From NCBI RefSeq assembly GCF_029962485.1, contig NZ_CP073638.1:2232001-2296000 (forward strand): a DNA stretch of 64,000 nt, given 5' to 3'. The position numbers and the translations under genes are program-made. Under the pieces are notes generated by a model, which saw only the letters and a program-made list of their open reading frames with translations, made no database searches and was not told where the DNA came from. The stretch is from Burkholderia cepacia. GTDB lineage: Bacteria; Pseudomonadota; Gammaproteobacteria; Burkholderiales; Burkholderiaceae. Position 1 is the first letter of the stretch; each line of letters opens with the position of its first letter. Below are positions 8,706 to 23,233 of this stretch, piece after piece.

Positions 8706-8843
8706 TCGCACTGCGCAACGGCGTGGCCGCGACGCACCACGAGATTGGCCGCCACGGCCGTGGCCCGCGCAAATTTGGTTTTCTACAGTCGTTTCCGGCA
8801 GTGCAACGCTGCCGGCCCCCTGACCGATGTGGAGTCCAGAAGA

Positions 8844-10040
8844 ATGAATCGTCCCGATAGCATTCGCGCGGCGTGCTGCGCGGTGATGGTCCTGGCCAGT
8901 GCCGGCGCGCACGCGCAAAGCAACGTGACGCTCTACGGCGTGATCGATGCGGGCATCCGCTACGAGACGCACGGCGTGTCCTATGGCGCCGACGGCACGC
9001 CGGTGTCGACCGGCCGCAAGATCTCGATGGCCGACGGCGGCGGCCTGACCGAAAGCTACTGGGGCCTCAAGGGCAATGAGGATCTGGGCGGCGGGCTGTC
9101 CGCGCAGTTCAACGTGGAAAGCCACTTCGGCCCGAACAGCGGCGCCATCGTGCCGGCCGGCTCACCGAATTTCTTCCAGGTCGCGTACGTCGGGCTCACG
9201 TCGACGTCGCTCGGCCAGCTCTCGCTCGGGCGCCAGTACAACGTGCCGTTCGAGATGGTGTCGCTGACCTTCGGCTCGAACCTGTGGGCCGGCCCGCAGG
9301 ATCCGTACTTCAACCTGTTCAAGCCGGAGCAGACGATGCTCGCGGGCGCGCGCACCAGCAACATGATCCAGTACGGCGCGCAGCTCGGCAGCTTCTACCT
9401 GCTCGCGCAATACGCGCCGGGCGGTCACGCGGGCGGCGGCGTGAACGGCGGCCAGCTCGGCGCGGCCGCCGCGTATGCGCCGGACAAGGGGCCGTTCACG
9501 GTCGGCGCATCGTTCATGCGCAGCTGGGACGACGTCACGCACGGGAAATTCGACATCTACACGGGCGGCGGCTCGGTGACGATCGGCAACGCGACCGTCA
9601 ACGCCGGCTATATCGAGAACGCGCGCGACAACGATTTCACGTCGTTCGAGAACGGCCCGTTCAGCCCGACCGACCTGGCCGGGCTCGGCATCATCTCGCC
9701 CGCGCAGGTGGTCGACCCGACGACGCCCGGCGGGTTCCGCCGCCGCAAGATGGCGCTCGCGGGGCTGACGTACCGCTTCACATCGGCGTTTACGGCGGCC
9801 GTCAACGCGTGGTGGACCCAGCAGTCGGGTTACACGTCGGACTTCGACGGCCGCGCGCGCCAGTTTCAGGTGATCGCCGGCTACAGCCTGTCGAAGCGCA
9901 GCATGCTCTATGCGGAAGTCGACTACGCGATCTACCGAGGCGGGCTGGTCGGCGCGCAGCTGGTCGGCGTGAACGGGCAGGCGCCGAGTACGAGCACCAC
10001 GCAGCTCGGTGCGACGGTCGGCCTGCGCCACTACTTCTGA
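8844..10040 (+). CDS. outer-membrane porin (OmpC-like, Gram-negative porin family)
   Basis: This 398-residue protein has a signal peptide ending AGAHA-QS followed by NVTLYGVIDAGIRYE, the usual first strand of Burkholderia porins, the constriction-loop-side motif LGGGLSAQFNVES, and a C-terminal aromatic residue (VGLRHYF) recognised by the BAM machinery. ATG 8844 is chosen over an in-frame ATG 99 bases upstream because it gives a proper signal peptide and lies behind GGAG. It forms a trimeric beta-barrel diffusion channel. It is placed after the oxidase/MFS genes, likely giving outer-membrane uptake for the same pathway. Confidence 0.88.
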   Translation: MNRPDSIRAACCAVMVLASAGAHAQSNVTLYGVIDAGIRYETHGVSYGADGTPVSTGRKISMADGGGLTESYWGLKGNEDLGGGLSAQFNVESHFGPNSGAIVPAGSPNFFQVAYVGLTSTSLGQLSLGRQYNVPFEMVSLTFGSNLWAGPQDPYFNLFKPEQTMLAGARTSNMIQYGAQLGSFYLLAQYAPGGHAGGGVNGGQLGAAAAYAPDKGPFTVGASFMRSWDDVTHGKFDIYTGGGSVTIGNATVNAGYIENARDNDFTSFENGPFSPTDLAGLGIISPAQVVDPTTPGGFRRRKMALAGLTYRFTSAFTAAVNAWWTQQSGYTSDFDGRARQFQVIAGYSLSKRSMLYAEVDYAIYRGGLVGAQLVGVNGQAPSTSTTQLGATVGLRHYF

Positions 10041-10070
10041 CGCGGGGTCGCATGGCATGTGGGCGATAAC

Positions 10071-10091
10071 GGCCGGGGCGGCACCCCGGCC
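10071..10091 (+). terminator. GC-rich hairpin after porin gene
   Basis: Arms GGCCGGGG and CCCCGGCC are separated by five bases, 30 bases after the porin stop codon. There is no T-run behind it, so it may be a transcript-end-stabilising hairpin instead of a strong intrinsic terminator. Confidence 0.4.
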
Positions 10092-10134
10092 GAGCGGGAC
10101 GAGTACAATCCGTGGAAAAAAACAGGGAGCATCC

Positions 10135-11154
10135 ATGGACGATACCGCCCGTTATACGACGGCGAATCTGCCGGTGCATTTACTGCGGTGCCTCGCGGAG
10201 ACAAGCAAGGAACTGGGCATCGATCCCGTGCGGCTGTGCCTCGGGCTCGGCTTCGACGTGGCCGACCTGTCGAATCCGTCGTGCCGGATTTCGTTGCGCC
10301 AGGCGAGCACGATGATCCGGCGTGCGCTCGAAATGGCGCCGCGGCGCGCGCTCGGCCTCGAACTCGGCACGAGCGAGACGATCGCGTCGATCGGGCTGGT
10401 CGGCTATGCGATGCTGACGAGCCCCACGCTGAAGGACGCGATCACGGTCGGCCTCGAGTTGCAGCGCCACACGGGGCCGCTGATGCGCTTCGACCTCGTG
10501 TCGGACGCGCGCACGCTGTCGATCCGCGCGACCAACGTCTTTCTCGAACCGGATATCGAGGCGTTCCTCGTCGAGGAAGCGTTCGGCAGCTTCATGAAGA
10601 TCGGGCGTTCACTCGTCGGCCCGTCGTTCCAGCCGAAGGTCATCGACCTCAGCTACCCGCCGCCCGCGTACGCGGAGCAGTACGCTCGCGTGTTCCAGTG
10701 CCCGGTGCGCTTCGAGCAGGAGCAGAACCTGCTGTCATGCGACGCGTCGCTCGGCAACCGCGCGATCGCGACGCACGATCCGCTCGCGCATCGCCAGGTG
10801 CTCGAATTCCTGCAGGACGCACTGCCGCCCGAATCCGAAGGCACCGAGTTCCTCGAATCGATCGAACGGATCATGCGGCGCGACCTGCGGCATACGCCAT
10901 CGCTCGCCGAGATCGCCGCGCAGTTGTGCATGAGCGAGCGTACGCTGAGGCGGCGGCTCGCCGACCAGGGCGTGTCGTATCAAACGGTGATCGACACGAT
11001 CCGCCGCAAGCGCGCATTTACGCTGCTGAGCAACCCGCGGCTGTCGATCGAGGATGTTGCGCACGAAGTCGGGTTCAGCGACGCGCACAACTTCCGCCGC
11101 GCGTTCAAGCGCTGGACGGGGCATGGGCCGCGCGAGGGGCAGCGCACGGCGTAG
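10135..11154 (+). CDS. AraC family transcriptional regulator (arabinose-binding-like N-terminal domain)
   Basis: This 339-residue protein has an N-terminal ligand domain of the PF12625 type (about 20-210) with MLTSPTLKDAI, then a C-terminal double helix-turn-helix (about 240-335): SLAEIAAQLCMSERTLRRRL is the first HTH and IEDVAHEVGFSDAHNFRRAF the second. This layout is that of OruR/ArgR-like AraC activators. AACAGGGAGC upstream of ATG 10135 supplies the ribosome site. It probably controls the adjacent porin/MFS/oxidase genes in response to their substrate. Confidence 0.85.
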   Translation: MDDTARYTTANLPVHLLRCLAETSKELGIDPVRLCLGLGFDVADLSNPSCRISLRQASTMIRRALEMAPRRALGLELGTSETIASIGLVGYAMLTSPTLKDAITVGLELQRHTGPLMRFDLVSDARTLSIRATNVFLEPDIEAFLVEEAFGSFMKIGRSLVGPSFQPKVIDLSYPPPAYAEQYARVFQCPVRFEQEQNLLSCDASLGNRAIATHDPLAHRQVLEFLQDALPPESEGTEFLESIERIMRRDLRHTPSLAEIAAQLCMSERTLRRRLADQGVSYQTVIDTIRRKRAFTLLSNPRLSIEDVAHEVGFSDAHNFRRAFKRWTGHGPREGQRTA

Positions 11155-11181: not shown

Positions 11182-12459
11182 TTACGCCGCGCCCGCCAGC
11201 GAACGATCGAGCGCGACGAGCGTCTGGTACAGCACGCGCGTGCCGTCGAGCAGTTGCTGCGGCTCGATCCATTCTTCCGGGCAATGGCTGCGGCCGCCCA
11301 GGCACGGAATGAAGATCATCCCGATCGGCCCGGTCGGCGCGACGTACACGGCGTCGTGCCCCGCGCCGCTCGGCAGCCGCATGCTCGGATAGCCGAGCTG
11401 CGTGGCCGCTTGCTCGACCGCGTCCATCACGAGCGGCTGGCAGTCGGTCGGGCGCGCACGACTCACGTGCTCGGCGCTTGCACTCAAGCGCAACGCATCG
11501 AGGCGCGCGGCCGCACCGGCCAGCAGCGCCTCGGGGAAAGCGTCGAGCACCGCGTCGCTGTCGCTGCGCACTTCCAGCATCAGCTCGACATGGCCCGGCA
11601 CCGCGTTCGGCACGTTCGGCGTCATCGCGATCCGCCCGATCGTCGCCACCACGTAATGCGGGTTGCCCGACAGCGCCGACGCGCGCGCGTGCGCGGCCTC
11701 GATCAGGTGCGCGGCGCCGACGAGCGCGTCGCGGCGGATATCCATCGGCGTCGTACCCGCATGATCGGGCTGGCCGGTCACGGTAATCAGCACGCGCCGG
11801 ATGCCGACGATGTTGGTCACGACGCCGATCGGCAAGCCGCGCGTTTCGAGCACGGGACCCTGTTCGATATGCAGCTCGACGAACGCGGCCGTGCTGCCCG
11901 GCGCGCGCAGCGGCTCGTGCAGCGCATCCGGGTTGCCGCCGATGCGGCGCAATGCTTCCGCCAGCGTTTCGCCTTCGGCGTTCGTCGCGCGCAGCATGCC
12001 CGCGTCGAGCACGCCCGACAATGCACGGCTGCCGACGCACGAGATGCCGTAATCGCTCGGCTCCTCTGACAGGAAGTCGATCACCTCGAACGGATGGTCG
12101 AGCACGATCCCCTGCTCGTTCAACGTATGCGCGACCTCGATGCCCGCGAGCACGCCGATGATCCCGTCGAAGCGGCCGCCGCCGACCACCGTGTCGCAGT
12201 GCGACCCCGTGACGAGCGGCTTCGTGCAGCGGCCGCTGCCTTCGCGGCGGCCGATCAGGTTGCCGCCCGCGTCCATCGACACCGCGAGCCCGGCTTCGGC
12301 GAACTGCGCGGCGAGCCATGCACGCGCCTCCGTGAAGAGCGGCGAGAACGCGCGGCGCGTCCACGGAACGTCGGGCCGCGTGAAGCGCGCCAGTTGCTCG
12401 ACGCGCGCGCTCAGGCGTTCGGCGTTCAGCGGCGGGAAAGGGAAAGCCGTCGGGTTCAT
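11182..12459 (-). CDS. M20 family N-carbamoyl-L-amino acid hydrolase (candidate N-carbamoyl-L-glutamate hydrolase)
   Basis: This 425-residue zinc amidohydrolase is of the allantoate amidohydrolase/L-carbamoylase group. Metal-site motifs visible: TGSHCDTVVGGGRFDG (His, Asp), FLSEEPSDYG (Glu-Glu), HIEQGPVLE (His) and PSGAGHDAVY (His). It removes the carbamoyl group as CO2 and ammonia. The ATG overlaps the hydantoinase stop (ATGA, 12456-12459), the classical hyuA/hyuC arrangement, so the two act in sequence. In the context of the neighbouring urocanase and lyase genes the expected substrate is N-carbamoyl-L-glutamate, giving glutamate; that substrate is inference. Confidence 0.8.
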   Translation of the reverse strand: MNPTAFPFPPLNAERLSARVEQLARFTRPDVPWTRRAFSPLFTEARAWLAAQFAEAGLAVSMDAGGNLIGRREGSGRCTKPLVTGSHCDTVVGGGRFDGIIGVLAGIEVAHTLNEQGIVLDHPFEVIDFLSEEPSDYGISCVGSRALSGVLDAGMLRATNAEGETLAEALRRIGGNPDALHEPLRAPGSTAAFVELHIEQGPVLETRGLPIGVVTNIVGIRRVLITVTGQPDHAGTTPMDIRRDALVGAAHLIEAAHARASALSGNPHYVVATIGRIAMTPNVPNAVPGHVELMLEVRSDSDAVLDAFPEALLAGAAARLDALRLSASAEHVSRARPTDCQPLVMDAVEQAATQLGYPSMRLPSGAGHDAVYVAPTGPIGMIFIPCLGGRSHCPEEWIEPQQLLDGTRVLYQTLVALDRSLAGAA

Positions 12460-13841
12460 GCTTGCTCCTGTTGCGTGGCGATCGACCGGCTGCCGTGCGG
12501 CTTCAGGAAGCGGCCCGAGCCCGCCGCGTTGACGATGCGCTCGCCGTCGTACACGAGCGCGCCGCGACAGTAGGTGGCGGCGATGCGCACCGTGAATTCC
12601 ATCCCTTCGAATGCGCTCCACTGCACGGCCGACAGGCTGCGCGACGGATCGAACGCGTAGCGTTCCGGCGTGAGGATCACGAAATCCGCATCGGCGCCGA
12701 CGTCGAGCGATCCCTTGCGATCGTCGAGCAGGAAGTGCCGCGCAGGATTCGTCGCCAGCAGTTCGGCCACGCGCGTCGGCGCGATCCCATGCTGTTCGCA
12801 GCCGGTCCAGAATGCCGGCAGCAACGTTTCGAGCCCCGGGCCGCCCGATGCATTGCGGAACACGTTCGGGTCACCCTTGCGTTCGAGCCCCCAGCTCACG
12901 TGATCCGACGACACGAACGTGCATTCGCCGCGCGCGATGTGCGTCCACAGCAGGTCCTGCTCGGCGCGCGGCCGGATCGGTGGGTAATGCTTGGTTTTCG
13001 CGCCGAAGCGCTTCGTATGCGTCTCGTGATCGAGCATCAGGTACTGCACGCAGGTCTCGATACTGGCGCGATGGCCGGCCTGCCGGAACATGTTGCACAG
13101 CGCGAAGCCGCGCGACGTCGACACATGCACCGCGTGCGCGCGGGCGCCCGTCTCCGCGCCGATCTCGTAGATCAACGCGGTCGCGAGGTTCTCGATCAGC
13201 GGCGGATGCGCGCGCAGGAACGCGTCCCAGCCCGTGTCGCCTGCCTCTATCATCCGCGCGACGTTCTTGCGCGTCATGTCCTGCATCTGGTTGTGCACGC
13301 CGCATGCGAGGCCCGACGGCGCGATCAGCCGGAACGCGTCGTACAGCACGTCCTCTTCCACGCGCGGGAACCGGCCGGGCGTCGCCTCGAACGTCGAGAA
13401 CTTGAACGCGCACACGCCGCCGTCGATCAGCCCGGCCGCCGCTTCGAGGCCGTGCTTCGCGTTGAGCGTGCCGTACAGCGCGACGTCGACGTGGCAGTCG
13501 CGCTCGGCTTCCGCGATCTTGCGGTCGAGCTGCGCGCGCGACGCGACCGGTTCCGGATCGTCGTACGGCATGTCGACCATCACCGTCACGCCACCCGCGG
13601 CGGCCGCACGCGACGCGTGACCGAGCCCCTCCTGGTTGGCCTGGCTGGCCGCATGCACCTGCCCGTCGACGACGCCCGGCAGCACCCACTGCCCGCGCGC
13701 ATCGATCGTGTCGCGCGCCGCCGGCGGCACGCCCGCGCCGCGCGCGGCGATCCGTCCGCCCCGGATCGCAAGCCAGCCGTCGTCGACCACCTCGCGCGCA
13801 TCGACCAGACGGCCGCGCACTACCTGCTCGAATTCGCTCAT
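12456..13841 (-). CDS. cyclic amidohydrolase (hydantoinase/dihydroorotase superfamily)
   Basis: This 461-residue TIM-barrel amidohydrolase has VLPGVVDGQVHAAS as the first metal motif, with Gln in place of the first His of the usual HxH; some dihydroorotase-family proteins share QVH. CAFKFST provides the probable carboxylated Lys, GVHNQMQ and AVHVSTS two His ligands and VSSDHVSW the catalytic Asp. It hydrolyses a cyclic ureide; next to the carbamoylase and a urocanase paralogue the likely substrate is hydantoin-5-propionate, yielding N-carbamoylglutamate (inference). First gene of a two-gene operon, divergent from the LysR gene. Ribosome site AGGAGG nine bases before ATG. Confidence 0.78.
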   Translation of the reverse strand: MSEFEQVVRGRLVDAREVVDDGWLAIRGGRIAARGAGVPPAARDTIDARGQWVLPGVVDGQVHAASQANQEGLGHASRAAAAGGVTVMVDMPYDDPEPVASRAQLDRKIAEAERDCHVDVALYGTLNAKHGLEAAAGLIDGGVCAFKFSTFEATPGRFPRVEEDVLYDAFRLIAPSGLACGVHNQMQDMTRKNVARMIEAGDTGWDAFLRAHPPLIENLATALIYEIGAETGARAHAVHVSTSRGFALCNMFRQAGHRASIETCVQYLMLDHETHTKRFGAKTKHYPPIRPRAEQDLLWTHIARGECTFVSSDHVSWGLERKGDPNVFRNASGGPGLETLLPAFWTGCEQHGIAPTRVAELLATNPARHFLLDDRKGSLDVGADADFVILTPERYAFDPSRSLSAVQWSAFEGMEFTVRIAATYCRGALVYDGERIVNAAGSGRFLKPHGSRSIATQQEQA

Positions 13842-13873
13842 CTTCGCCTCCTGCTTTTTTGATCACGAGCAGT

Positions 13874-13894
13874 TTAGGCAGCGCTCTGCCAGAA
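13874..13894. promoter_or_regulatory. dyad in divergent promoter region, candidate LysR site
   Basis: TTTAGGCAG and CTGCCAGAA arms surround CGCT, lying 33 bases upstream of the hydantoinase start and 47 upstream of the LysR start. LysR-type regulators commonly bind such dyads (T-N11-A type) between divergent genes. Inference from position and symmetry only. Confidence 0.35.
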
Positions 13895-13940
13895 TGTCTC
13901 ATGCCGATTTATCGTCCCCACATAACATGGAGTTAAGGCT

Positions 13941-14831
13941 GTGCGTCTGAACCTGCGCCAGATCGAGGTGTTTCGCGCCATCATGCTGACCGGCTCGATC
14001 AGCGGCGCCGCGAAGCTGCTGCACGTATCGCAGCCGGCCGTCTCGCGGCTCATTTCGTATGCCGAACAACGGCTCGGCCTCGCGCTGTTCGAGCGCATCA
14101 AGGGGCGGCTCTACCCGACACCGGAGGCGCAGCGGCTGTTCGTCGAAGTGAACGCGGTGTACCAGAGCGTGCAGCGCGTCAACGAAATCGCGGAGGACCT
14201 GATCGAGAACCGGATGGGCCACTTGCGCATCGCGTGCAGCCCCAATCTCGGGCAATCGCTGCTGCCGCGCGCGATCGCGGCGTTCTACGAGCGCTTTCCC
14301 GACGTGCGCATCATCCTGCACACGATGATCCCGAGCGTGCTGCTGCAAGCGGTGCTCACGCAGCAGGTCGAGCTCGGCATCGCGTTCCTGCAGGACACGC
14401 ACCCGAACGTCGAGAGCCAGCCGCTCTATGAAAACCGGATGGTCGCGGCCGTGCCCGCATCGCACCCGTTCGCGCGCCGCAAGACGCTGGCCGTGCGCGA
14501 TCTCGCGAACCAGCCGCTGATCGGCTATGGCAGCGACATTCCGCTCGGGCAGCTGGTGCGGCGGCTGTTCAGCGACGAAGGGCTCGTGCCGCAGGTCAAG
14601 ATCGAGGTGCAGCAGGCGCACGTCGCATGCGCGCTCGCGCAGGCCGGCACCGGCATCGCGCTGATCGACGAACTGACGGTCGCGGGGCCCGTGTGGCCGC
14701 AGATCGTCGTGAAGCCGATCGTGCCGACCATTTCCGCGCCGGTCAGCGTGCTGCACCCCGTACTCGCACCGCTGTCGAGGCTCGCGAACGAGTTCATCGA
14801 CACACTTCATTCGCTGTCCGCAAACGCATGA
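13941..14831 (+). CDS. LysR family transcriptional regulator of the 11-23 kb catabolic locus
   Basis: This 296-residue protein has a winged HTH in residues 1-60 (RQIEVFRAIMLTGSISGAAK and VSQPAVSRLI) and a periplasmic-binding-like effector domain from about 90 onward. The start is GTG 13941, behind GGAGTTAAGG. It sits divergent from the hydantoinase/carbamoylase pair and immediately before the DUF917-urocanase-MFS-lyase operon, so it is placed to control both arms. The effector is likely the imidazole-derived substrate or an intermediate (inference). Confidence 0.85.
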   Translation: MRLNLRQIEVFRAIMLTGSISGAAKLLHVSQPAVSRLISYAEQRLGLALFERIKGRLYPTPEAQRLFVEVNAVYQSVQRVNEIAEDLIENRMGHLRIACSPNLGQSLLPRAIAAFYERFPDVRIILHTMIPSVLLQAVLTQQVELGIAFLQDTHPNVESQPLYENRMVAAVPASHPFARRKTLAVRDLANQPLIGYGSDIPLGQLVRRLFSDEGLVPQVKIEVQQAHVACALAQAGTGIALIDELTVAGPVWPQIVVKPIVPTISAPVSVLHPVLAPLSRLANEFIDTLHSLSANA

Positions 14832-14958
14832 ATTCCGGTGCCGAAACGGGCTGAAATCGTTGTCCAGCCTGCGTTTCGCCGTCCCACCGGCAGCCGCCGA
14901 TCGCGGCGCGGGCAGCCCGTCGCTCGGGCGTCACCGGGATTACCCTACGCTTAACATC

Positions 14959-14992
14959 GCGTTATGAAGTCTCCATAAAATAGCAATAACGC
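14959..14992. promoter_or_regulatory. inverted repeat with AT-rich centre upstream of DUF917 operon
   Basis: GCGTTAT (14959-14965) and ATAACGC (14986-14992) flank an AT-rich stretch containing TAAAAT, in the 260-base gap before the DUF917 gene. It could be the operator/promoter of the catabolic operon controlled by the upstream LysR. No experimental support. Confidence 0.35.
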
Positions 14993-15091
14993 TCAATATT
15001 CGGCGTCCCTAGAATCGTTTGGACAGTACCGCCACACAAGGCTTTCCGGCCGGCGCGTACAGCCCTTTTTCCCTCTCAGGACAAACGACAC

Positions 15092-16183
15092 ATGGGACGC
15101 ATTCTGTCTTCGAAGGACGTCGAAGCCGCCGTCAAGGGCGGTTCGGTTTTCGCATGCGGCGGCGGCGGCTGGGCCGACCACGGCCGTGAACTCGGCACGC
15201 TCGCGGTCACGATCGGCCGCCCCGAACTGGTGAGCATCGACGAGTTGCCGAACGACGCATGGATCGCCACGGCTGCCGCGATCGGCGCGCCGGGCGGCCT
15301 CACCGACTGGCAAATGCTCGGCGCCGACTACGTGAAGGCCGCGCAGCTCGTCCAGGACGCGCTCGGCGAGCCGCTCGCGGGGCTCATCATCGGGCAGAAC
15401 GGGATGTCGAGCACGCTGAACGCGTGGCTGCCGTCCGCGCTGCTCGGCACCAAGGTGGTCGACGCGGTGGGCGACATCCGCGCGCATCCGACCGGTGACA
15501 TGGGTTCGCTCGGCCTCGCATCGAGCACCGCGCCGATGATCCAGGCGGCGGCCGGCGGCAACCGCGCCCAGCATGCGTACATGGAAGTGGTCGTGCGCGG
15601 CGCGACCGCGCGGGTGTCGCCGGTGCTGCGCAAGGCGGCCGACATGGCCGGCGGCTTCATCGCGAGTTGCCGCAACCCGATTCGCGCATCGTATGTGCGC
15701 CAGCACGCGGCGCTCGGCGGCATCAGCCGCGCGCTCGCACTCGGCGAAGCGATCATCGACGCCGAGCGACGCGGCGGCAGTGCGGTGATCGATGCGATCT
15801 GCGCGACCACGCACGGCGAGATCATCGCGAGCGGCAAGGTCGAGCGCAACACGCTCGAATACACGCGCGAAGCGTTCGACGTCGGCCTCGTCTACCTCGG
15901 CAGCGGCGCGCAGCGCGCGGTCATTCACGTGATGAACGAACACATGGCGGTGGACGACGCACACGGCGAACGGATCGCGACGTACCCGGACGTGATCACG
16001 ACGCTCGATGCCGAAGGCCGCCCCGTCAGCGCCGGCCAGTTGAAGGAAGGGATGGAGATCCACGTGCTGCGCGTGGCGAAGGCGCACATTCCGCTGTCGT
16101 CGTCGGTATTCGATCCGGCCGTGTATCCGCCGGTCGAAGCCGCGCTCGGCATTTCGATCGCCGACTATGCGCTCGCGCGCTGA
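15092..16183 (+). CDS. DUF917 family protein (candidate thiohydantoin desulfhydrase/hydrolase)
   Basis: This 363-residue protein has the DUF917 hallmark FACGGGGWADHGRE at the N terminus, SIDELPNDAWIATAA, and the central VGDIRAHPTGDMGSLGL metal-binding-type region. DUF917 proteins share a fold with acetone carboxylase/hydantoinase relatives and occur with hydantoin-processing enzymes. It is the first gene of an operon with a urocanase paralogue (15-base gap) and an ammonia-lyase-like protein. In ergothioneine degradation the thiohydantoin made after hydration must lose its sulfur; this gene is the best local candidate. Family is clear; the reaction is inference. Confidence 0.72.
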   Translation: MGRILSSKDVEAAVKGGSVFACGGGGWADHGRELGTLAVTIGRPELVSIDELPNDAWIATAAAIGAPGGLTDWQMLGADYVKAAQLVQDALGEPLAGLIIGQNGMSSTLNAWLPSALLGTKVVDAVGDIRAHPTGDMGSLGLASSTAPMIQAAAGGNRAQHAYMEVVVRGATARVSPVLRKAADMAGGFIASCRNPIRASYVRQHAALGGISRALALGEAIIDAERRGGSAVIDAICATTHGEIIASGKVERNTLEYTREAFDVGLVYLGSGAQRAVIHVMNEHMAVDDAHGERIATYPDVITTLDAEGRPVSAGQLKEGMEIHVLRVAKAHIPLSSSVFDPAVYPPVEAALGISIADYALAR

Positions 16184-16198
16184 ACGGAGGGCGACACC

Positions 16199-17839
16199 AT
16201 GACCCGCACCTTCGAAGTCACGTCCGGCAACACGCTGCGCTGCAAGGGCTGGCGCCAGGAAGCACTGCTGCGCCTGCTCGAGAACGTGCTCGCCGTCGGC
16301 GAGGACCCCGAACAATTGATCGTCTACGCGGCGCTCGGCCGTGCGGCGCGCGACTGGCCGTCGCACGACGCGATCGTGCACACGCTGAAGACGATGGACG
16401 AGGACCACACGCTCGTCGTCCAGTCCGGCAAGCCCGTCGCGCTGCTGCGCACGCATGCGAGCGCGCCGCTCGTCGTGATGGCGAACTGCAACCTGATCGG
16501 CCAGTGGGCGAAGGCCGAACACTTCTACGAACTGGAGCGGCGCAACCTGATCTGCTGGGGCGGCCTGACGGCCGGCGACTGGCAGTACATCGGCTCGCAG
16601 GGCGTGATCCAGGGCACGTATGAAATCTTCTCGCGCATCGCCGAGCGCCATTTCGACAACGACCTGCGCGGCCGCTTCATCCTGACCGCCGGCCTCGGCG
16701 GAATGGGTGGCGCGCAACCGCTCGCGGGCCGGATGGCGAACGCGGCGACACTCGTCGTCGAGATCGACCAGACGCGCATCGACAAGCGGCTGCAGATCGG
16801 CTTCCTCGAACGGCAGGCGCGCGATCTCGACGAGGCGCTCGCGCTGATCCGCGACGCGCAGGCCCGGCGCGAACCGATCTCGGTCGGCCTGCTCGGCAAC
16901 GCGGCCGACGTGTTCCCGGCGATCCTCGCGCGCGGCGTCGTGCCCGACATCGTCACCGACCAGACGGCCGCGCACGATCTCGTCTACGGCTACGTGCCGT
17001 CGGGCTTCACGCTCGACGAAGTGCGCGCGCTGCGCGAGCGCGACCTCACGCGGCTGATGGATGCGAGCCGCGCGTCGATCGTGCGACACGTCGAGGCGAT
17101 GCTGGGCTTCAAGGATCGCGGCGCGATCGTGTTCGACAACGGCAACCTGATCCGCACGCATGCGAAAGACGGCGGCGTCGCGCGCGCGTTCGAGATCCCG
17201 GTGTTCACCGAGGCATTCCTGCGCCCGCTGTTCTGCCGTGCGATCGGCCCATTCCGCTGGATCGCGCTGTCGAACGACCCGAACGACATCCGCCTCATCG
17301 ACGACTACCTGCTCGAACACTTTCCGGACAACCGGATCGTCACGAACTGGATCCAGCGCGCCCGCGAATGCGTGCCGTTCGAAGGGCTGCCGGCGCGCAT
17401 CGCATGGCTCGGCCACGGCGAGCGCACGCGGCTCGCGCTCGCGGTCAACGCGATGGTGCGCGACGGCGTGCTGGCCGGGCCGGTCGCGTTCACGCGCGAC
17501 CACCTCGATGCCGGTGCGATGGCGCACCCGAACATCATGACCGAGAACCTGCGCGACGGCTCCGACGCGGTGGCCGACTGGCCGCTGCTGAACGCGATGA
17601 TGAGCTGCTCGTCGATGGCCGATCTCGTCGCGATCCATTCGGGCGGCGGCGGCTACAGCGGCTACATGACGAGTGCGGGCGTCACCGTCGTGGCCGACGG
17701 CAGCGCGGCGGCGAACGAGCGGCTCACGCTGTCGATGACCAACGACACCGCGCTCGGCGTGATCCGCTACGCGGATGCCGGCTACGAAGAAGCTCTCGAC
17801 GAAGCGCAACGCAAGCAGATTCCGCACATCCGGCTGTAA
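16199..17839 (+). CDS. urocanase family protein (candidate thiourocanate hydratase)
   Basis: This 546-residue, full-length urocanase homologue has TAGLGGMGGAQPLAG, the NAD-binding loop, and DHLDAGAMAHPNIMTE plus DGSDAVADWPLLNA in the catalytic half. Differences from histidine-degradation HutU: the segment GLPARIAWLGHGER has Ala402 where HutU, as I recall, has its active-site Cys, and the usual His-His-Gly-Gly-Gly stretch is IHSGGGG. These suggest a related but different substrate. The gene lies between DUF917 and an MHS permease, with spacing of 15 and 36 bases, so one transcript. No hutH, hutI or hutG genes are present nearby, arguing against the ordinary hut pathway. Confidence 0.8.
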   Translation: MTRTFEVTSGNTLRCKGWRQEALLRLLENVLAVGEDPEQLIVYAALGRAARDWPSHDAIVHTLKTMDEDHTLVVQSGKPVALLRTHASAPLVVMANCNLIGQWAKAEHFYELERRNLICWGGLTAGDWQYIGSQGVIQGTYEIFSRIAERHFDNDLRGRFILTAGLGGMGGAQPLAGRMANAATLVVEIDQTRIDKRLQIGFLERQARDLDEALALIRDAQARREPISVGLLGNAADVFPAILARGVVPDIVTDQTAAHDLVYGYVPSGFTLDEVRALRERDLTRLMDASRASIVRHVEAMLGFKDRGAIVFDNGNLIRTHAKDGGVARAFEIPVFTEAFLRPLFCRAIGPFRWIALSNDPNDIRLIDDYLLEHFPDNRIVTNWIQRARECVPFEGLPARIAWLGHGERTRLALAVNAMVRDGVLAGPVAFTRDHLDAGAMAHPNIMTENLRDGSDAVADWPLLNAMMSCSSMADLVAIHSGGGGYSGYMTSAGVTVVADGSAAANERLTLSMTNDTALGVIRYADAGYEEALDEAQRKQIPHIRL

Positions 17840-17875
17840 CGGCCGGCTCGCACGACGACAAGACAGGAGATCGAA

Positions 17876-19198
17876 GTGAAGCAAACCGCGGTTCCCCTCG
17901 ACACGGCCACGGCCGTGTCGCCCCCCGCCTCGCGTGCCGGGCGCGCAATCGCCGCGGCATCGATCGGCAACGCGCTGGAGTGGTACGACTTTTCCGTCTA
18001 CGCGTTTTTTGCGGTGTACATCGCGCAGAACTTCTTCCATCGCGGCAACACCGGCACCGAGCTGGTCGAGGCGTTCATGGCGTTCGGGATCGGCTTCATC
18101 GCGCGGCCGCTCGGCGCGCTCGCGATCGGCGTGTACGGCGATCGCGCCGGCCGCAAGGCCGCGCTGACGCTGACCATCCTCGTGATGGCGGCCGGCACCG
18201 GCATCATCGCGTTCGCGCCGCCGTTCACCGCGATCGGCATCGGCGCGCCGCTGCTGATCCTGTGCGGCCGGCTGCTGCAGGGTTTCTCGGCCGGCGGCGA
18301 AGTGGGCGGCGCCGCGGCGTTCCTGATCGAGCACGCGCCGGCGGACAAGAAGGGCCGCTACGCATCGTGGCTGCAGGCGAGCATGGCCGCGTCGAACATC
18401 CTCGGCGCGCTGGTCGCCACGGCCGTGACGCTCACGCTGTCGCGCGAACAGATCGGCGACTGGGGCTGGCGGATTCCGTTCATCCTCGGTCTCGCGATCG
18501 CGCCGGTCGGCCTGTGGCTGCGCAAGACGCTCGACGAAACGCCGCATTTCCGCGCGGAAATGGCACGCGCCGCGCACGCACCGGCCGAGCGCAAGACGCC
18601 GCTGCTGCAGGTCGTGCGCGACTATCCGCGCGCGCTCGTGGTCGGCACCGGGTTCTCGGTGCTGTGGGCCGTGTGCGTGTATGCGCTGGTGATCTACATG
18701 CCGACGCACGTGCAGCGCGCGCTGCATTTCGACGGGCGCGATGCGTTCATCGCGTCGCTGGTCGGCAACTGCCTGATGGCCGTCACCTGCGTGTGCGCCG
18801 GAAGCTGGTCGGATCGCTTCGGGCGGCGCAAGGTGCTGACGGCCGGCGCGACGCTGATGCTCGTGTCGGTGTATCCGCTGCTGCACTGGCTCGCCGACGT
18901 ACACACGCTCGCCGCGCTGATCGTCGTGCAAAGCGCGTTCTGCGTGATGGTCGCGATCTTCACGGGTGTCGCGCCCGCCGCGCTGTCGGAACTGTTCCCG
19001 ACCCGCGTGCGCGCGACCGGCATGTCGCTGTCCTACAACATCGCCACGACGATCTTCGGCGGCTTCGCGCCGGCGATCCTCGCGTGGCTCACGCAACGAT
19101 CGGGCAACCCGTTCGCGCCTGCCTGGTATGTGATGGTCGCGAGCGTCATCGCGCTCGTGTCGATCGCCGCGCTGTCTTCCACGTCACGTCACGCCTGA
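17876..19198 (+). CDS. MFS transporter, metabolite:H+ symporter (MHS) family
   Basis: This 440-residue membrane protein has twelve probable segments. IGNALEWYDFSVYAFFAVY near the N terminus, GDRAGRKAALTLTI (loop 2-3) and RLLQGFSAGGEVGGAAAFL are hallmarks of the MHS group (ProP, KgtP, ShiA). GTG 17876 follows GGAGATCGAA. Substrates of this group are betaines, organic acids and zwitterions; ergothioneine, a histidine betaine, or thiourocanate produced in the periplasm would fit the operon. Substrate is inference. Confidence 0.82.
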   Translation: MKQTAVPLDTATAVSPPASRAGRAIAAASIGNALEWYDFSVYAFFAVYIAQNFFHRGNTGTELVEAFMAFGIGFIARPLGALAIGVYGDRAGRKAALTLTILVMAAGTGIIAFAPPFTAIGIGAPLLILCGRLLQGFSAGGEVGGAAAFLIEHAPADKKGRYASWLQASMAASNILGALVATAVTLTLSREQIGDWGWRIPFILGLAIAPVGLWLRKTLDETPHFRAEMARAAHAPAERKTPLLQVVRDYPRALVVGTGFSVLWAVCVYALVIYMPTHVQRALHFDGRDAFIASLVGNCLMAVTCVCAGSWSDRFGRRKVLTAGATLMLVSVYPLLHWLADVHTLAALIVVQSAFCVMVAIFTGVAPAALSELFPTRVRATGMSLSYNIATTIFGGFAPAILAWLTQRSGNPFAPAWYVMVASVIALVSIAALSSTSRHA

Positions 19199-19215
19199 AT
19201 TCGGAGAACTGCTTC

Positions 19216-20850
19216 ATGCAACGCTTCCTCATGCGGAGCGCGGTCGCGCTCGCGCTTTTCGCCGCCGTCCCGGCCTTCGCGGACGTCACGCTCGACGGCC
19301 GGTCCGCCACGCCCGAATCGATCGCCCGCATCGCCGACGGCGAAGCCGTGTCGATCGCACCGGCCGCCCGCCAGCGCGTCGTCGCCGCGCACGACGTGCT
19401 GCTGAAGGCCGCCGCGGCCGGCCAGCAGATCTACGGGCTGACAGTCGGCGTCGGTCTCAACAAGGACCGCGAGATGGTCGATGCGCACGGCAAGCTGTCG
19501 CAGGAAGTCATCGACGCGTCGACGCGCTTCAACATCGGGCTGATCCACGCGCACTCGGGCAGCGTCGGCCCCGACATGAGCGTACGCGTGGCGCGCGCCG
19601 CGATGGCCGCCCGCCTGAACGCGATGCTCGACGGCGGCGCCGGCGTGCAGCCGGCGATCGTCGACGCGTATGCGCAGTTCCTCAATCGCGGCGTCACGCC
19701 CGCGATGCCGGCGGACGGCTCGATCGGCGAAGCCGACATCACGATCCTGAGCCATGTCGGCCTCGCGATGCTCGGCGAAGGCGACGTGTATTACCAGGGC
19801 CGCAAGGTCGCGGCCGCCGACGCGCTGAAGTCGACCGGCATCGCGACGATCCGCCCGTACGGCAAGGACGCACTCGCGATCCTCAGCTCCAACGCGTATT
19901 CGGCCGGCATGGGCGCACTGGCGCTCACCGACATGGCGCGGCTCGCGCGGGTGTCGAAGGTCGTGTTCGCGCTGAGCCTGCAGGGGCTGAACGGCAACGT
20001 GTCGCCGTTCCGCGAGGACACGCTCGCGCTGCGGCCGTTCCCGGCGACGCTGCGCGCCGGCGCCACGCTGCGCACGCTGCTCGCGGGCAGCAGCTTGTGG
20101 AACAAGGACCCGGAGCGGCCGCTGCAGGATCCGCTCAGCTTCCGTTCCGGCGTCTACCTGCTCGGCGAAGAGGATCGCACCTATGACGAGGCGCGTGCGT
20201 TGCTGCAGGTGCAGCTCAATTCGAGCGACGACAACCCAGGCGTCGCGGTCGGCGTCACGCCGAAGTCGACCCGCGCGCAGGATGCGGCCGGCTACGTCGA
20301 CGGTGGTGGCGCCGTGCTGCCGAGCGCGAACTTCGAACCGCTGCCGTGGGTACTCGCGTTCGAACAGCTCGGGCTCGCGCTCGGCCACAACGCACTCGCG
20401 TCCGCGCAACGCATCGTCAAGCTGAACGACCCGCACCTCACCGGCCTCTCGCGCTTCCTCGGCACCGAGGACACCGTGCATGCGTTCGGTGCGATGGAGA
20501 AGCCGCCGACCGCGCTCGCGATGACGGTGAAGTCGCTCGCGATGCCCGTGTCGCTCGACTACCTGCCCGTTGCGGGCGGCATCGAGGACATCGCGACGAA
20601 CGCGCCCGACGTCGTGCAGCGCGTGCAGAAGCAGATCGACGCGAGCTACACGCTGCTCGGCCTCGAGCTGATCGAGGCATCGCAAGCGATCGACCTGCGC
20701 CAGCGCAAGCAGCCGTCGTTCACGCTCGCGCCGGCCACGCAGCCGCTGTACCGCGCACTGCGTACCAAGGTCGCGTTCCTCCAGCGCGACCGCCCGCTCA
20801 CGCCCGATTTCCGCGCCGCCGATGCGCTGCTGCGCACGTATCGCGACTGA
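19216..20850 (+). CDS. exported histidine-ammonia-lyase-like protein lacking MIO triad (candidate ergothionase)
   Basis: This 544-residue aromatic amino acid lyase fold protein has recognisable IYGLTVGVGLNKDRE (substrate-side Tyr loop), NSSDDNPGVAVG and EKPPTALAMTVKSLA. Residues 1-22 are a signal peptide (cleavage after AFA), so it should act in the periplasm, unlike cytosolic HutH. Where HutH has the Ala-Ser-Gly that cyclises to MIO, this protein reads GSIGEADITILSH (Glu172-Ala173-Asp174). Loss of MIO fits an enzyme that eliminates a good leaving group such as trimethylamine, i.e. ergothionase making thiourocanate. GGAG ribosome site; 17 bases after the permease gene. Confidence 0.78.
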   Translation: MQRFLMRSAVALALFAAVPAFADVTLDGRSATPESIARIADGEAVSIAPAARQRVVAAHDVLLKAAAAGQQIYGLTVGVGLNKDREMVDAHGKLSQEVIDASTRFNIGLIHAHSGSVGPDMSVRVARAAMAARLNAMLDGGAGVQPAIVDAYAQFLNRGVTPAMPADGSIGEADITILSHVGLAMLGEGDVYYQGRKVAAADALKSTGIATIRPYGKDALAILSSNAYSAGMGALALTDMARLARVSKVVFALSLQGLNGNVSPFREDTLALRPFPATLRAGATLRTLLAGSSLWNKDPERPLQDPLSFRSGVYLLGEEDRTYDEARALLQVQLNSSDDNPGVAVGVTPKSTRAQDAAGYVDGGGAVLPSANFEPLPWVLAFEQLGLALGHNALASAQRIVKLNDPHLTGLSRFLGTEDTVHAFGAMEKPPTALAMTVKSLAMPVSLDYLPVAGGIEDIATNAPDVVQRVQKQIDASYTLLGLELIEASQAIDLRQRKQPSFTLAPATQPLYRALRTKVAFLQRDRPLTPDFRAADALLRTYRD

Positions 20851-20893
20851 GCGGCGCACCGCCCTTTCTTCGCTTCACCCGTCAGCTGTCCCG

Positions 20894-20928
20894 CCCGCAC
20901 CGCGATCGACATTCGATCGCGGTGCGGG
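20894..20928 (+). terminator. strong hairpin between lyase and porin genes
   Basis: Sixteen-base perfect arms (CCCGCACCGCGATCGA at 20894-20909, complement at 20913-20928) with a three-base loop. It separates the catabolic operon from the porin gene. There is no T-run, so it may be a terminator or an mRNA-stability hairpin that sets porin expression apart from the enzyme genes. Confidence 0.5.
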
Positions 20929-20996
20929 ACCCGAAGATCCGTTCGTATCGCACCGCCGCTCGCTGACTTTCAACCATCCCGCACCGGAACATCATC

Positions 20997-22097
20997 ATGA
21001 AAAGAATCCTGTTCGCGCTGCCGCTCGCCGCGGCCGCCACCGCTCACGCGCAAAGCAGCGTCACGCTGTACGGCATCGTCGAAGACGGCGTCGACTACGT
21101 GTCGAACGTGCAGGGCAAGCATCTCGTGCAGCTCGCGTCGGGCGTGACGGCCGGCAGCCGCTGGGGCGTGCGCGGCACCGAGGATCTCGGCGGCGGCCTC
21201 AGCGCGATCTTCCGGCTCGAAAGCGGCTTCGACCTCAACTCCGGCCGCCTCGGCAGCGGGCTCGCGTTCTCGCGCAACGCGTACGTCGGCCTGAACGACA
21301 CGAAGCTCGGCACGCTCACGCTCGGCCGCCAGTGGGATTCGATCGTCGACTACGTCGAGCCGTTCACGCTGAACGGCAACATCGGCGGCTACTACTTCGC
21401 GCACCCGAATGACATGGACAACACCGACAACGGCTTTCCGATCTCGAATGCGGTCAAGTACCGCAGCCCGACGATCGCGGGCATCACGTTCGGCGGCCTC
21501 TATGCGTTCGGCGGGCAGCCCGGCCGCTTCTCCGACAAAGCGACGTTCAGCGTCGGCGCGAGCTACGCGGCGGGCCCGGTCGGCTTCGGCATCGGCTATC
21601 TGCGGATCAACAACCCGGGCGTGTCGACACAGGGCTACCAGAACTATCCGGGCTTCACGAACGCGATCTACGGCAACTACCTCGATGCGGCGCGCGCGCA
21701 GAAGGTGTTCGGCGTAGGCGCGTCGTATCAGGTCGTGCAGTGGCTCAAGGTGCTCGCCGACTTCACGAATACGAACTTCCAGCATGGCAGCGCGGGGCAC
21801 GACGCGACGTTCCAGAACTACGAGCTGTCGACGCTCGTCACGCCGACGCCGGCCGTAACGGTCGGCGCCGGCTATACGTACACGACGGGCCGCGACCACG
21901 CGACGAACGCCGAACCGAAGTATCACCAGTTCAACCTGAGCGTCGAATACGCGCTGTCCAAGCGCACGAGCGTCTACGTGATGGGTGCGTTCCAGAAGGC
22001 GGCCGGCGACGCACCGGTCGCGCAGATCGCGGGCTTCAATCCGTCGAGCAACCAGAAGCAGGCCGTCGGGCGCGCGGGCATCCGCCACGTGTTCTGA
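20997..22097 (+). CDS. outer-membrane porin
   Basis: This 366-residue protein has a signal peptide MKRILFALPLAAAATAHA, then QSSVTLYGIVEDGVDYVSN (first strand), RGTEDLGGGLSAIFRLESGF, FSRNAYVGLNDTKLGTLTLG and the final VGRAGIRHVF. These are the standard motifs of the Burkholderia OmpC-type trimeric porins. Location after the lyase/permease operon suggests it brings the same small polar substrate across the outer membrane. ATG 20997 has only a weak GGAA-like site. Confidence 0.87.
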   Translation: MKRILFALPLAAAATAHAQSSVTLYGIVEDGVDYVSNVQGKHLVQLASGVTAGSRWGVRGTEDLGGGLSAIFRLESGFDLNSGRLGSGLAFSRNAYVGLNDTKLGTLTLGRQWDSIVDYVEPFTLNGNIGGYYFAHPNDMDNTDNGFPISNAVKYRSPTIAGITFGGLYAFGGQPGRFSDKATFSVGASYAAGPVGFGIGYLRINNPGVSTQGYQNYPGFTNAIYGNYLDAARAQKVFGVGASYQVVQWLKVLADFTNTNFQHGSAGHDATFQNYELSTLVTPTPAVTVGAGYTYTTGRDHATNAEPKYHQFNLSVEYALSKRTSVYVMGAFQKAAGDAPVAQIAGFNPSSNQKQAVGRAGIRHVF

Positions 22098-22162
22098 CGC
22101 GCCGTTCGACGGGTGCCGCCGCGCACCCGTCCGCCTCTCTTTCTTCACGCCATTCAATCAGT

Positions 22163-23233
22163 ATGCCTATTCATTTGATCCGGAGTGCCGGCAGGCGCCG
22201 CCGGCTGCTGTCGACCGTCGGCGCATCGCTGATCGCCTGTACGATCGCCGACGACGCCACGGCCCAGTCGTCCGTCTCGCTGTACGGGCTGGCCGACGTC
22301 TATGTCGGCACGCAAAAGAGCCTCGGCAAGCCGCGCGCGTATGCCATGAATTCGGGCGGCTTCACGACGAGCTTCTGGGGAATCGGCGGCCGCGAGGATC
22401 TCGGCGGCGGCTACGCGCTGCAGTTCGCGCTCGAAGCGTTCATGCGCCCGTCGAACGGCGGCGCCGGCCGCTTCAGCGGCGATACGTTCTTCGGGCGCAA
22501 CGCGTATGTCGGCGTCGCGGCGCCGTACGGCGTGCTGCGCGCGGGACGCAACACGACACCGTATTACGTCTCGGTCGTGCGCTTCAACCCGTTCTCGACG
22601 TCGTTCGGCTTCTCGCCGGCGCTGAACCAGATGTACAAGGGCGTATCGGGGCAAGGCCTCGTCGGCGACAACGGCTGGAGCAATTCGGTGCTGGTTTCGA
22701 CGCCCGGCGAGCACGCGCTGCAAGCGAGCCTGATCTATGCGACCGGCAACGCGCCCGGCCACGCGGGCGCGAACCAGTGGGGTGGCAACTTCACCTACGA
22801 CGGGCGCCGCGCGTTCAGCGCGACGCTCGCGTTCCAGCAGGCGAAATTCGACCGGACGCCAGGCGACCTGAACGCCGCCATCACCGGCTTCACGCAGCAG
22901 GACGCCGTGCTGGCCGGCGTCGGCTACGACCTGAAGGTCGTGAAGTTCACCGCGTTCTATCAGTACGTGCACGATGCGATCGACGGCGGCGGGCTCGGCA
23001 CCCACAGCGCGCAGGTGGGCGCAGCGGTGCCGATCGGCTTCGGCACGGTGCTCGCGTCGGTGATGGCCGCGAAGAGCCACGGGCGCGACCGCCCGTCGAG
23101 AACGACCTGGGCGCTCGGCTACGACTACCGGCTGTCGAAGCGGACCGACGTGTACGTGGCCTACATGCGTGACCGTGCGAGCGGCTACGGCAATGGCGAC
23201 TCGGCCGGGCTCGGGCTGCGCACGGCGTTCTGA
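22163..23233 (+). CDS. second outer-membrane porin, divergent subtype
   Basis: This is a 356-residue protein. The N terminus is unusual (IRSAGRRRRLLSTVGA before the hydrophobic core, cleavage probably after DATA), followed by QSSVSLYGLADVYVGTQKSL and GGREDLGGGYALQFALEAFM, so the barrel is a porin. LSKRTDVYVAYMRDRASG near the end is also typical. It ends GLGLRTAF with terminal Phe. Only 65 bases separate it from the preceding porin gene, so the two are probably co-transcribed. Two non-identical porins in tandem point to gene duplication and divergence. The long Arg run may form a twin-basic export region. Confidence 0.82.
   Translation: MPIHLIRSAGRRRRLLSTVGASLIACTIADDATAQSSVSLYGLADVYVGTQKSLGKPRAYAMNSGGFTTSFWGIGGREDLGGGYALQFALEAFMRPSNGGAGRFSGDTFFGRNAYVGVAAPYGVLRAGRNTTPYYVSVVRFNPFSTSFGFSPALNQMYKGVSGQGLVGDNGWSNSVLVSTPGEHALQASLIYATGNAPGHAGANQWGGNFTYDGRRAFSATLAFQQAKFDRTPGDLNAAITGFTQQDAVLAGVGYDLKVVKFTAFYQYVHDAIDGGGLGTHSAQVGAAVPIGFGTVLASVMAAKSHGRDRPSRTTWALGYDYRLSKRTDVYVAYMRDRASGYGNGDSAGLGLRTAF

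Follow-up and report, generated by a model that had tools for sequence, protein, structure and literature searches.

The 64,000-nucleotide stretch of Burkholderia cepacia DNA analysed here (hereafter the window; contig NZ_CP073638.1, positions 2,232,001 to 2,296,000) lies on contig C2 of a three-contig, 7.70 Mb genome and carries a locus predicted to convert ergothioneine to glutamate. The locus consists of two divergent arms, with ertD and ertE running leftward, and lysR, ertC, ertB, an MHS permease gene, ertA and two porin genes running rightward (Table 1). A preliminary description had listed an M20 carbamoylase, a hydantoinase, a LysR protein, a DUF917 protein, a urocanase paralogue, an MHS permease, a lyase and two porins, and all nine were confirmed as open frames in the window. 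ErtD and ErtE are NCBIfam names, while the letters A, B and C (ertA, ertB, ertC) are labels coined in this analysis. The DUF917 family of ErtC is now named S-Me-THD-like in Pfam. The listed 479-residue open reading frame of ertE begins too early, and its start was revised. The end of ertD and the start of ertE overlap by 4 bases, and gaps of 15, 36 and 17 bases separate ertC from ertB, ertB from the permease gene, and the permease gene from ertA.

Table 1. Features of the ergothioneine locus, in window coordinates.
Feature	Position	Strand	Evidence
ErtE, N-carbamyl-L-glutamate amidohydrolase (M20 family), 425 aa	11182..12459	-	NCBIfam NF058540 653.4 bits, cut-off 520
ErtD, hydantoin-5-propionate amidohydrolase, 461 aa	12456..13841	-	NCBIfam NF058538 693.8 bits, cut-off 600
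Palindrome TAACATGGAGTTA, putative LysR operator, between ertD and lysR	13923..13935	+	box in region in 37/37 loci
LysR-family regulator, 296 aa	13941..14831	+	NCBIfam LysR models all below cut-off; relatives at same place in other clusters
Palindrome TAACATCGCGTTA, putative LysR operator, upstream of ertC	14952..14964	+	box in region in 37/37 loci
ErtC, thiohydantoin desulfurase (PF06032/PF20906), 363 aa	15092..16183	+	NCBIfam NF058529 609.8 bits, cut-off 440
ErtB, thiourocanate hydratase (urocanase fold), 546 aa	16199..17839	+	NCBIfam NF058530 1050.6 bits, cut-off 930
MHS-family permease, 440 aa; proposed thiourocanate importer	17876..19198	+	NCBIfam matches below cut-off, and context
ErtA, exported MIO-less ergothionase-type lyase (PF00221), 544 aa	19216..20850	+	triad, PDB match, tree, signal peptide rule
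ErtA predicted signal peptide, residues about 1-22	19216-19281	+	inspection and simple rule
Porin_4 porin 1, 366 aa	20997..22097	+	Pfam 168.9 bits
Porin_4 porin 2, 356 aa	22163..23233	+	Pfam 150.7 bits; start revised

For comparison, 80 named loci around ertC (designated by L numbers) were fetched, being the best 80 of 419 confirmed candidates; further stretches matched the scan. Genes in these loci were predicted with our own gene caller, followed by a tblastn check. Burkholderia sp. BCC1644 heads the list of named clusters, and the core order ertE-ertD / lysR-ertC-ertB-MHS-ertA-porin is identical in all nine named Burkholderia loci among the 80.

Four of the five pathway enzymes (thiourocanate hydratase, thiohydantoin desulfurase, ErtD and ErtE) exceed the cut-offs of curated NCBIfam equivalog models, and the lyase is the only one for which no curated model exists. 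These matches support the assignment of the locus to the known five-enzyme route, of which it adds a further example. The encoded proteins would convert ergothioneine to thiourocanate and trimethylamine, thiourocanate to thiohydantoin propionate, the latter to hydantoin-5-propionate and H2S, and then yield N-carbamyl-glutamate and finally glutamate. The thiourocanate hydratase model is selective. Of 299 sampled genomes of the family, 18 contain a match at an E value of 1e-250, as do 6 of 398 genomes sampled from the phylum (each count includes the window's genome), and no match of this strength occurs in 14 control genomes. ErtB also exceeds the cut-off of the general hutU model (704 against 375), as expected for a urocanase paralogue.

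The substrate of the cluster might instead be S-methyl-ergothioneine or a different relative of ergothioneine, for example its sulfonate: the S-methyl hydratase and desulfurase have separate NCBIfam models, and a paper on a sulfonate pathway has been published. Scored against the S-methyl thiohydantoin desulfurase model NF058532, however, ErtC reaches 278 bits (cut-off 450), and ErtB reaches 766 bits (cut-off 880) with the S-methyl thiourocanate hydratase model, whereas both ergothioneine models pass with wide margins. We regard this alternative as very improbable, on a comparison that covered the S-methyl route. A second ErtD model gave 351 bits for ErtD, below its cut-off of 650.

ErtA has the histidine ammonia-lyase fold and lacks the Ala-Ser-Gly (ASG) triad that gives rise to the 4-methylideneimidazole-5-one (MIO) group, with Glu-Ala in its place (GSIG-EA-DI); the ergothionase structure 6s7j has Glu-Gly (SSIG-EG-DI). 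This ergothionase is the best PDB match of ErtA (269 bits), followed by a histidine ammonia-lyase (166 bits), and the hutH model gives ErtA 253 bits against a cut-off of 539. By fold comparison alone, ergothionase and histidine ammonia-lyase tie as nearest. A quick tree was built from lyases of 37 of the 80 loci (36 plus that of L131), the window, and two lyases found elsewhere in the L117 and L126 genomes, together with six Treponema denticola-type proteins and four ASG-bearing lyases; ErtA groups with the T. denticola type (Shimodaira-Hasegawa-like approximate likelihood ratio test support 96). ErtA is thus classed as an ergothionase-type lyase, predicted to release trimethylamine from ergothioneine. 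Its closest listed relative, from Burkholderia arboris, is 98% identical, and orthologues of at least 89% identity occur in 14 of 65 genomes of the genus. Other ASG-less lyases of the same fold, with motifs GSIGAADL, GSIGAGDL and GSVGYL, were observed for L074, L186, L199, L203 and L208, in Rhizobium, a Hyphomicrobiales metagenome-assembled genome (MAG), Janthinobacterium sp. S3T4 and Acinetobacter sp. ANC 4558.

Ordinary histidine degradation through paralogues of the hut genes would account for the urocanase and lyase folds, which are common to the hut pathway and the cluster. Elsewhere in the same genome, contig C1 encodes a lyase that retains the ASG triad, while the lyase of the window lacks it. 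A desulfurase, a hydantoinase and a carbamoylase moreover have no place in the hut route, and histidine degradation as the role of this locus can be given almost no weight. HutI and hutG are not among the annotated genes of the cluster, although no search aimed at these families was made. The preliminary description had proposed an ergothioneine-degradation locus, to be doubted if the lyase aligned better with true HutH or tyrosine ammonia-lyase and carried an intact MIO triad; the triad is absent, ergothionase is nearest in sequence among solved structures, and four curated pathway models pass, all in agreement with that proposal.

The N-terminus of ErtA, MQRFLMRSAVALALFAAVPAFA|D, resembles a classical Sec signal peptide, with an n-region, an h-region and an AXA-type cleavage site recognised by inspection. 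The homologous catalytic domain begins at residue 26 of ErtA and at residue 5 of the 6s7j chain, so that the signal occupies an extension. A simple signal peptide rule devised for this analysis was positive for 104 of 120 listed members of the ErtA clade and for none of 120 listed T. denticola-type relatives. Among the window proteins, porin 1 was positive, and ErtB, ErtC, ErtD, LysR and the permease were negative; ErtE and porin 2, entered with too-early starts, were uninformative. N-termini that resemble a signal and include a cleavage-like site are found repeatedly among diverse members of the clade, and the lyase tree implies at least two changes of the exported state. ErtA is accordingly predicted to be periplasmic.

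The presence of a signal peptide on the lyase is associated with the type of carrier encoded nearby. A lyase with a signal occurs in 30 of the 80 loci (L119 and L146 were judged exported by eye, and L131 and one of two L129 lyases were labelled by hand), accompanied by an MHS permease in 29 and by a tripartite ATP-independent periplasmic (TRAP) carrier, with Pfam DctP and DctM, in one, a Cardiobacteriaceae MAG. A signal-less lyase is present in 29 loci, none of which has an MHS permease. A carrier could be assigned in five of these, always of betaine type: a BCCT carrier in L128 (361 bits), OsmF-type betaine ATP-binding cassette (ABC) carriers in Martelella L148 (496 against a cut-off of 400) and Vibrio L154 (404 against 400), and OsmF-type ABC carriers recognised by gene clustering in Martelella L150 and L167. 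The 24 signal-less loci for which no carrier was assigned belong to Rhizobium, Ensifer and their kin. Reinekea L149, which combines an OsmF-type ABC carrier (419 against 400) with a possible signal peptide, is ambiguous and does not enter the counts for carriers and egtD. L136, from Raoultella, has an interrupted lyase and an MHS permease. In Raoultella sp. BIGb0138 (L185, L197, L136) the lyase lies in two pieces with one in-frame stop, while tblastn recovers the permease gene and the remaining four enzyme genes with full or nearly full scores.

The lyase could alternatively be cytoplasmic, its N-terminal stretch a non-working signal peptide, with the MHS permease importing intact ergothioneine and the pathway itself unchanged. 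T. denticola-type ergothionases indeed have no signal peptide by the rule, and the permease matches the betaine carrier model ProP (288 bits). Its score with the TcuC-type model (354 bits) is nevertheless higher, and the metabolite/H+ symporter model gives 396 bits, all three being below cut-off. The recurrence of signals with cleavage-like sites, the partition of MHS permeases between exported and signal-less lyases, and the retention of the permease in genomes that showed no ergothionase-clade lyase, described below, all argue against a cytoplasmic lyase, which we consider unlikely.

Eleven of the 80 loci have an MHS permease and no lyase in the stretch; among them, the stretches of L124, L127 and L138 are short or run into a contig end, with ertB also missing there from L124 and L127. 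A further seven loci have neither gene, and in L144 the only lyase is ASG-bearing and the MHS permease is lacking. The search for lyases elsewhere in the genome took in 19 named loci, including ten of the eleven with the permease and no lyase (all but L124), and 12 further genomes. Bordetella trematum (L117) and Janthinobacterium sp. 344 (L126) encode an exported lyase elsewhere. Pandoraea (L122, L123, L125), Achromobacter dolens (L127) and Herbaspirillum autotrophicum (L130) have ASG-bearing lyases only, and the same combination of an MHS cluster with ASG lyases only was found in five of five genomes of a genus group (g11) that includes three named Pandoraea genomes. The genome search gave no lyase in the small MAG of L138 and no ergothionase-clade lyase in Acinetobacter sp. 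ANC 4558 (L134) or Janthinobacterium sp. S3T4 (L137), the last two holding lyases of the MIO-less GSVGYL type. Since the permease persists where the lyase is absent, and since the lyase carries an export signal where present, the MHS permease most likely imports thiourocanate, rather than ergothioneine. The preliminary description had credited the locus with its own uptake across both membranes. Porins and a permease are present, as it stated, but the inner-membrane step more likely concerns thiourocanate than ergothioneine. The porins are of the general Porin_4 type, with no sign of ergothioneine specificity.

Several neighbouring genes were observed around these clusters. A gene that clusters with the UbiD decarboxylase family occurs in 7 of the 80 loci (L122, L123, L125, L130, L144, L151, L155), none of which has a MIO-less lyase in the locus; the L144 copy was confirmed by Pfam, a UbiX-like neighbour was recognised by eye in L130, and the L151 copy lies apart from the ert genes. 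This mutual exclusion may reflect another source of thiourocanate or another substrate. In L110, L111, L112 and L061, persulfide-dioxygenase-like and sulfide:quinone-reductase-like genes directly follow the exported lyase gene (in L111, Blh 379 bits and SQR 172 bits, both below cut-off), fitting the disposal of H2S that the desulfurase would release. In nine loci (L113, L115, L116, L118-L121, L129, L131) the same gene row encodes, beside the lyase or after the MHS permease, a protein of the metallo-beta-lactamase fold, whose L115 copy appears to have a signal peptide. In the window, a further Porin_4 porin and an AraC-family regulator (8745-11154) lie directly left of ertE, and both recur there in several Burkholderia loci.

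The window's genome probably makes ergothioneine, because it holds adjoining egtB (516 against a cut-off of 360) and egtD (424 against 291) genes. EgtD is present in all 65 genomes of the genus, exceeding the cut-off in 64 and split into two pieces in the remaining one. With these genes in the genome, a lyase kept outside the cytoplasm would spare self-made ergothioneine, and the export signal suggests that only outside ergothioneine is degraded. EgtD was sought in the genomes of 50 of the 80 loci. It exceeded the cut-off in 14 of 23 rows with an exported lyase and in 0 of 17 signal-less rows (Fisher 3.8e-5), the 40 rows including the window, counting one genome with two lyases twice, and scoring a weak sub-cut-off match in L168 as absent.

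T-N11-A palindromes are typical of LysR sites, and a box of this form, TAAC-N5-GTTA, occurs in both promoter regions of the window. The strict form TAACATNNNGTTA was absent from all 100 shuffles. The box was present in both promoter regions of every one of the 37 loci, out of 80, in which the gene caller had placed ertD, LysR and ertC (the second region exceeds 2 kb in L128 and L130), with 81 boxes found against 2.9 expected from base composition. Among 1536 palindromic patterns, TAAC-N5-GTTA alone occurred in both regions of all 37 loci; the next, which overlaps it, reached 8. The loci are related, yet the box is kept where the bases around it differ from genus to genus. TAAC-N5-GTTA is likely the LysR operator, with binding predicted from this conservation.

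Taken together, we propose that the locus encodes the known route with an exported first step, thiourocanate uptake by the MHS permease, and LysR control of both arms through the palindromes, an explanation to which we assign a probability of about 0.7. Ergothioneine would cross the outer membrane through the porins and lose trimethylamine to the MIO-less lyase in the periplasm. The permease would then take up thiourocanate, on which the hydratase, desulfurase, hydantoinase and carbamoylase would act in turn in the cytoplasm, and the LysR protein would control both divergent arms from its TAAC-N5-GTTA sites. A broader reading has, in our estimate, an even chance of being right. It holds that the pathway exists in two spatial versions, an exported lyase with an organic-acid carrier (MHS or TRAP) importing thiourocanate, and a cytoplasmic lyase with a betaine carrier (BCCT or OsmF-type ABC) importing ergothioneine; that ergothioneine makers have only the first, and so eat the ergothioneine of others without destroying their own; and that clusters with a carrier and no lyase belong to cross-feeders on the thiourocanate released by neighbours.

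Several observations weigh against these proposals. The carrier pattern is strong in counts and rests on only two phylogenetically independent pairs. The association of egtD with export fits the sparing of the cell's own pool and is confounded by phylogeny: Rhizobium, Ensifer, Sinorhizobium, Martelella and other Hyphomicrobiales account for 15 of the 17 signal-less rows, 9 exported rows lack egtD, and the gene is found in some genomes whose clusters lack an ergothionase, such as Pandoraea, Herbaspirillum and Achromobacter dolens. The proposition that export follows from having egtD was itself weakened, as the tree offers two independent pairs, with which a sign test cannot reach significance. 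Genome-wide, strict operator sites number 3, as do those of a reversed control, and 2 of the 3 lie in this cluster. The third lies, by eye, between a porin-like and a transporter-like gene.

Ergothioneine is an antioxidant made by some bacteria and fungi and consumed by others. If correct, an exported first step would account for production and degradation of ergothioneine in one organism; thiourocanate and trimethylamine would be expected to leak from such cells, and a niche for cross-feeding would follow. The analysis also names a concrete putative operator for LysR and a candidate carrier. What is newly proposed here is the export of the first step together with thiourocanate import, along with the two-version scheme and the operator. 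A literature search showed none of these proposals, no paper devoted to the cluster and no mention of lyase export; most subscription journals lay outside it, so that this is weak evidence of absence.

Compared with known systems, ErtA resembles the T. denticola ergothionase (PDB 6s7j/6s7q), likewise a MIO-less protein of the histidine ammonia-lyase fold, with 32% identity over 481 aligned residues. The T. denticola enzyme has no N-terminal extension, whereas in ErtA a signal peptide precedes the domain and shifts its start by about 21 residues. Another ergothionase (BAM63550) comes from Burkholderia sp. HME13, which bears the same genus name as the organism of the window or that of a related genus, and is mentioned as expressed with ergothioneine as the sole nitrogen source (PMC13405746). 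Uptake is likewise linked to ergothioneine in a bacterial ABC importer (PMC9732360); the carrier proposed here differs in being an MHS permease with thiourocanate as its cargo. A further counterpart is the five-step ergothioneine catabolism that Beliaeva, Leisinger and Seebeck reportedly set out in ACS Chem Biol in 2021. The five enzyme classes are common to both, and to these the present analysis adds the predicted export of the lyase, the carrier swap and the putative LysR operator.

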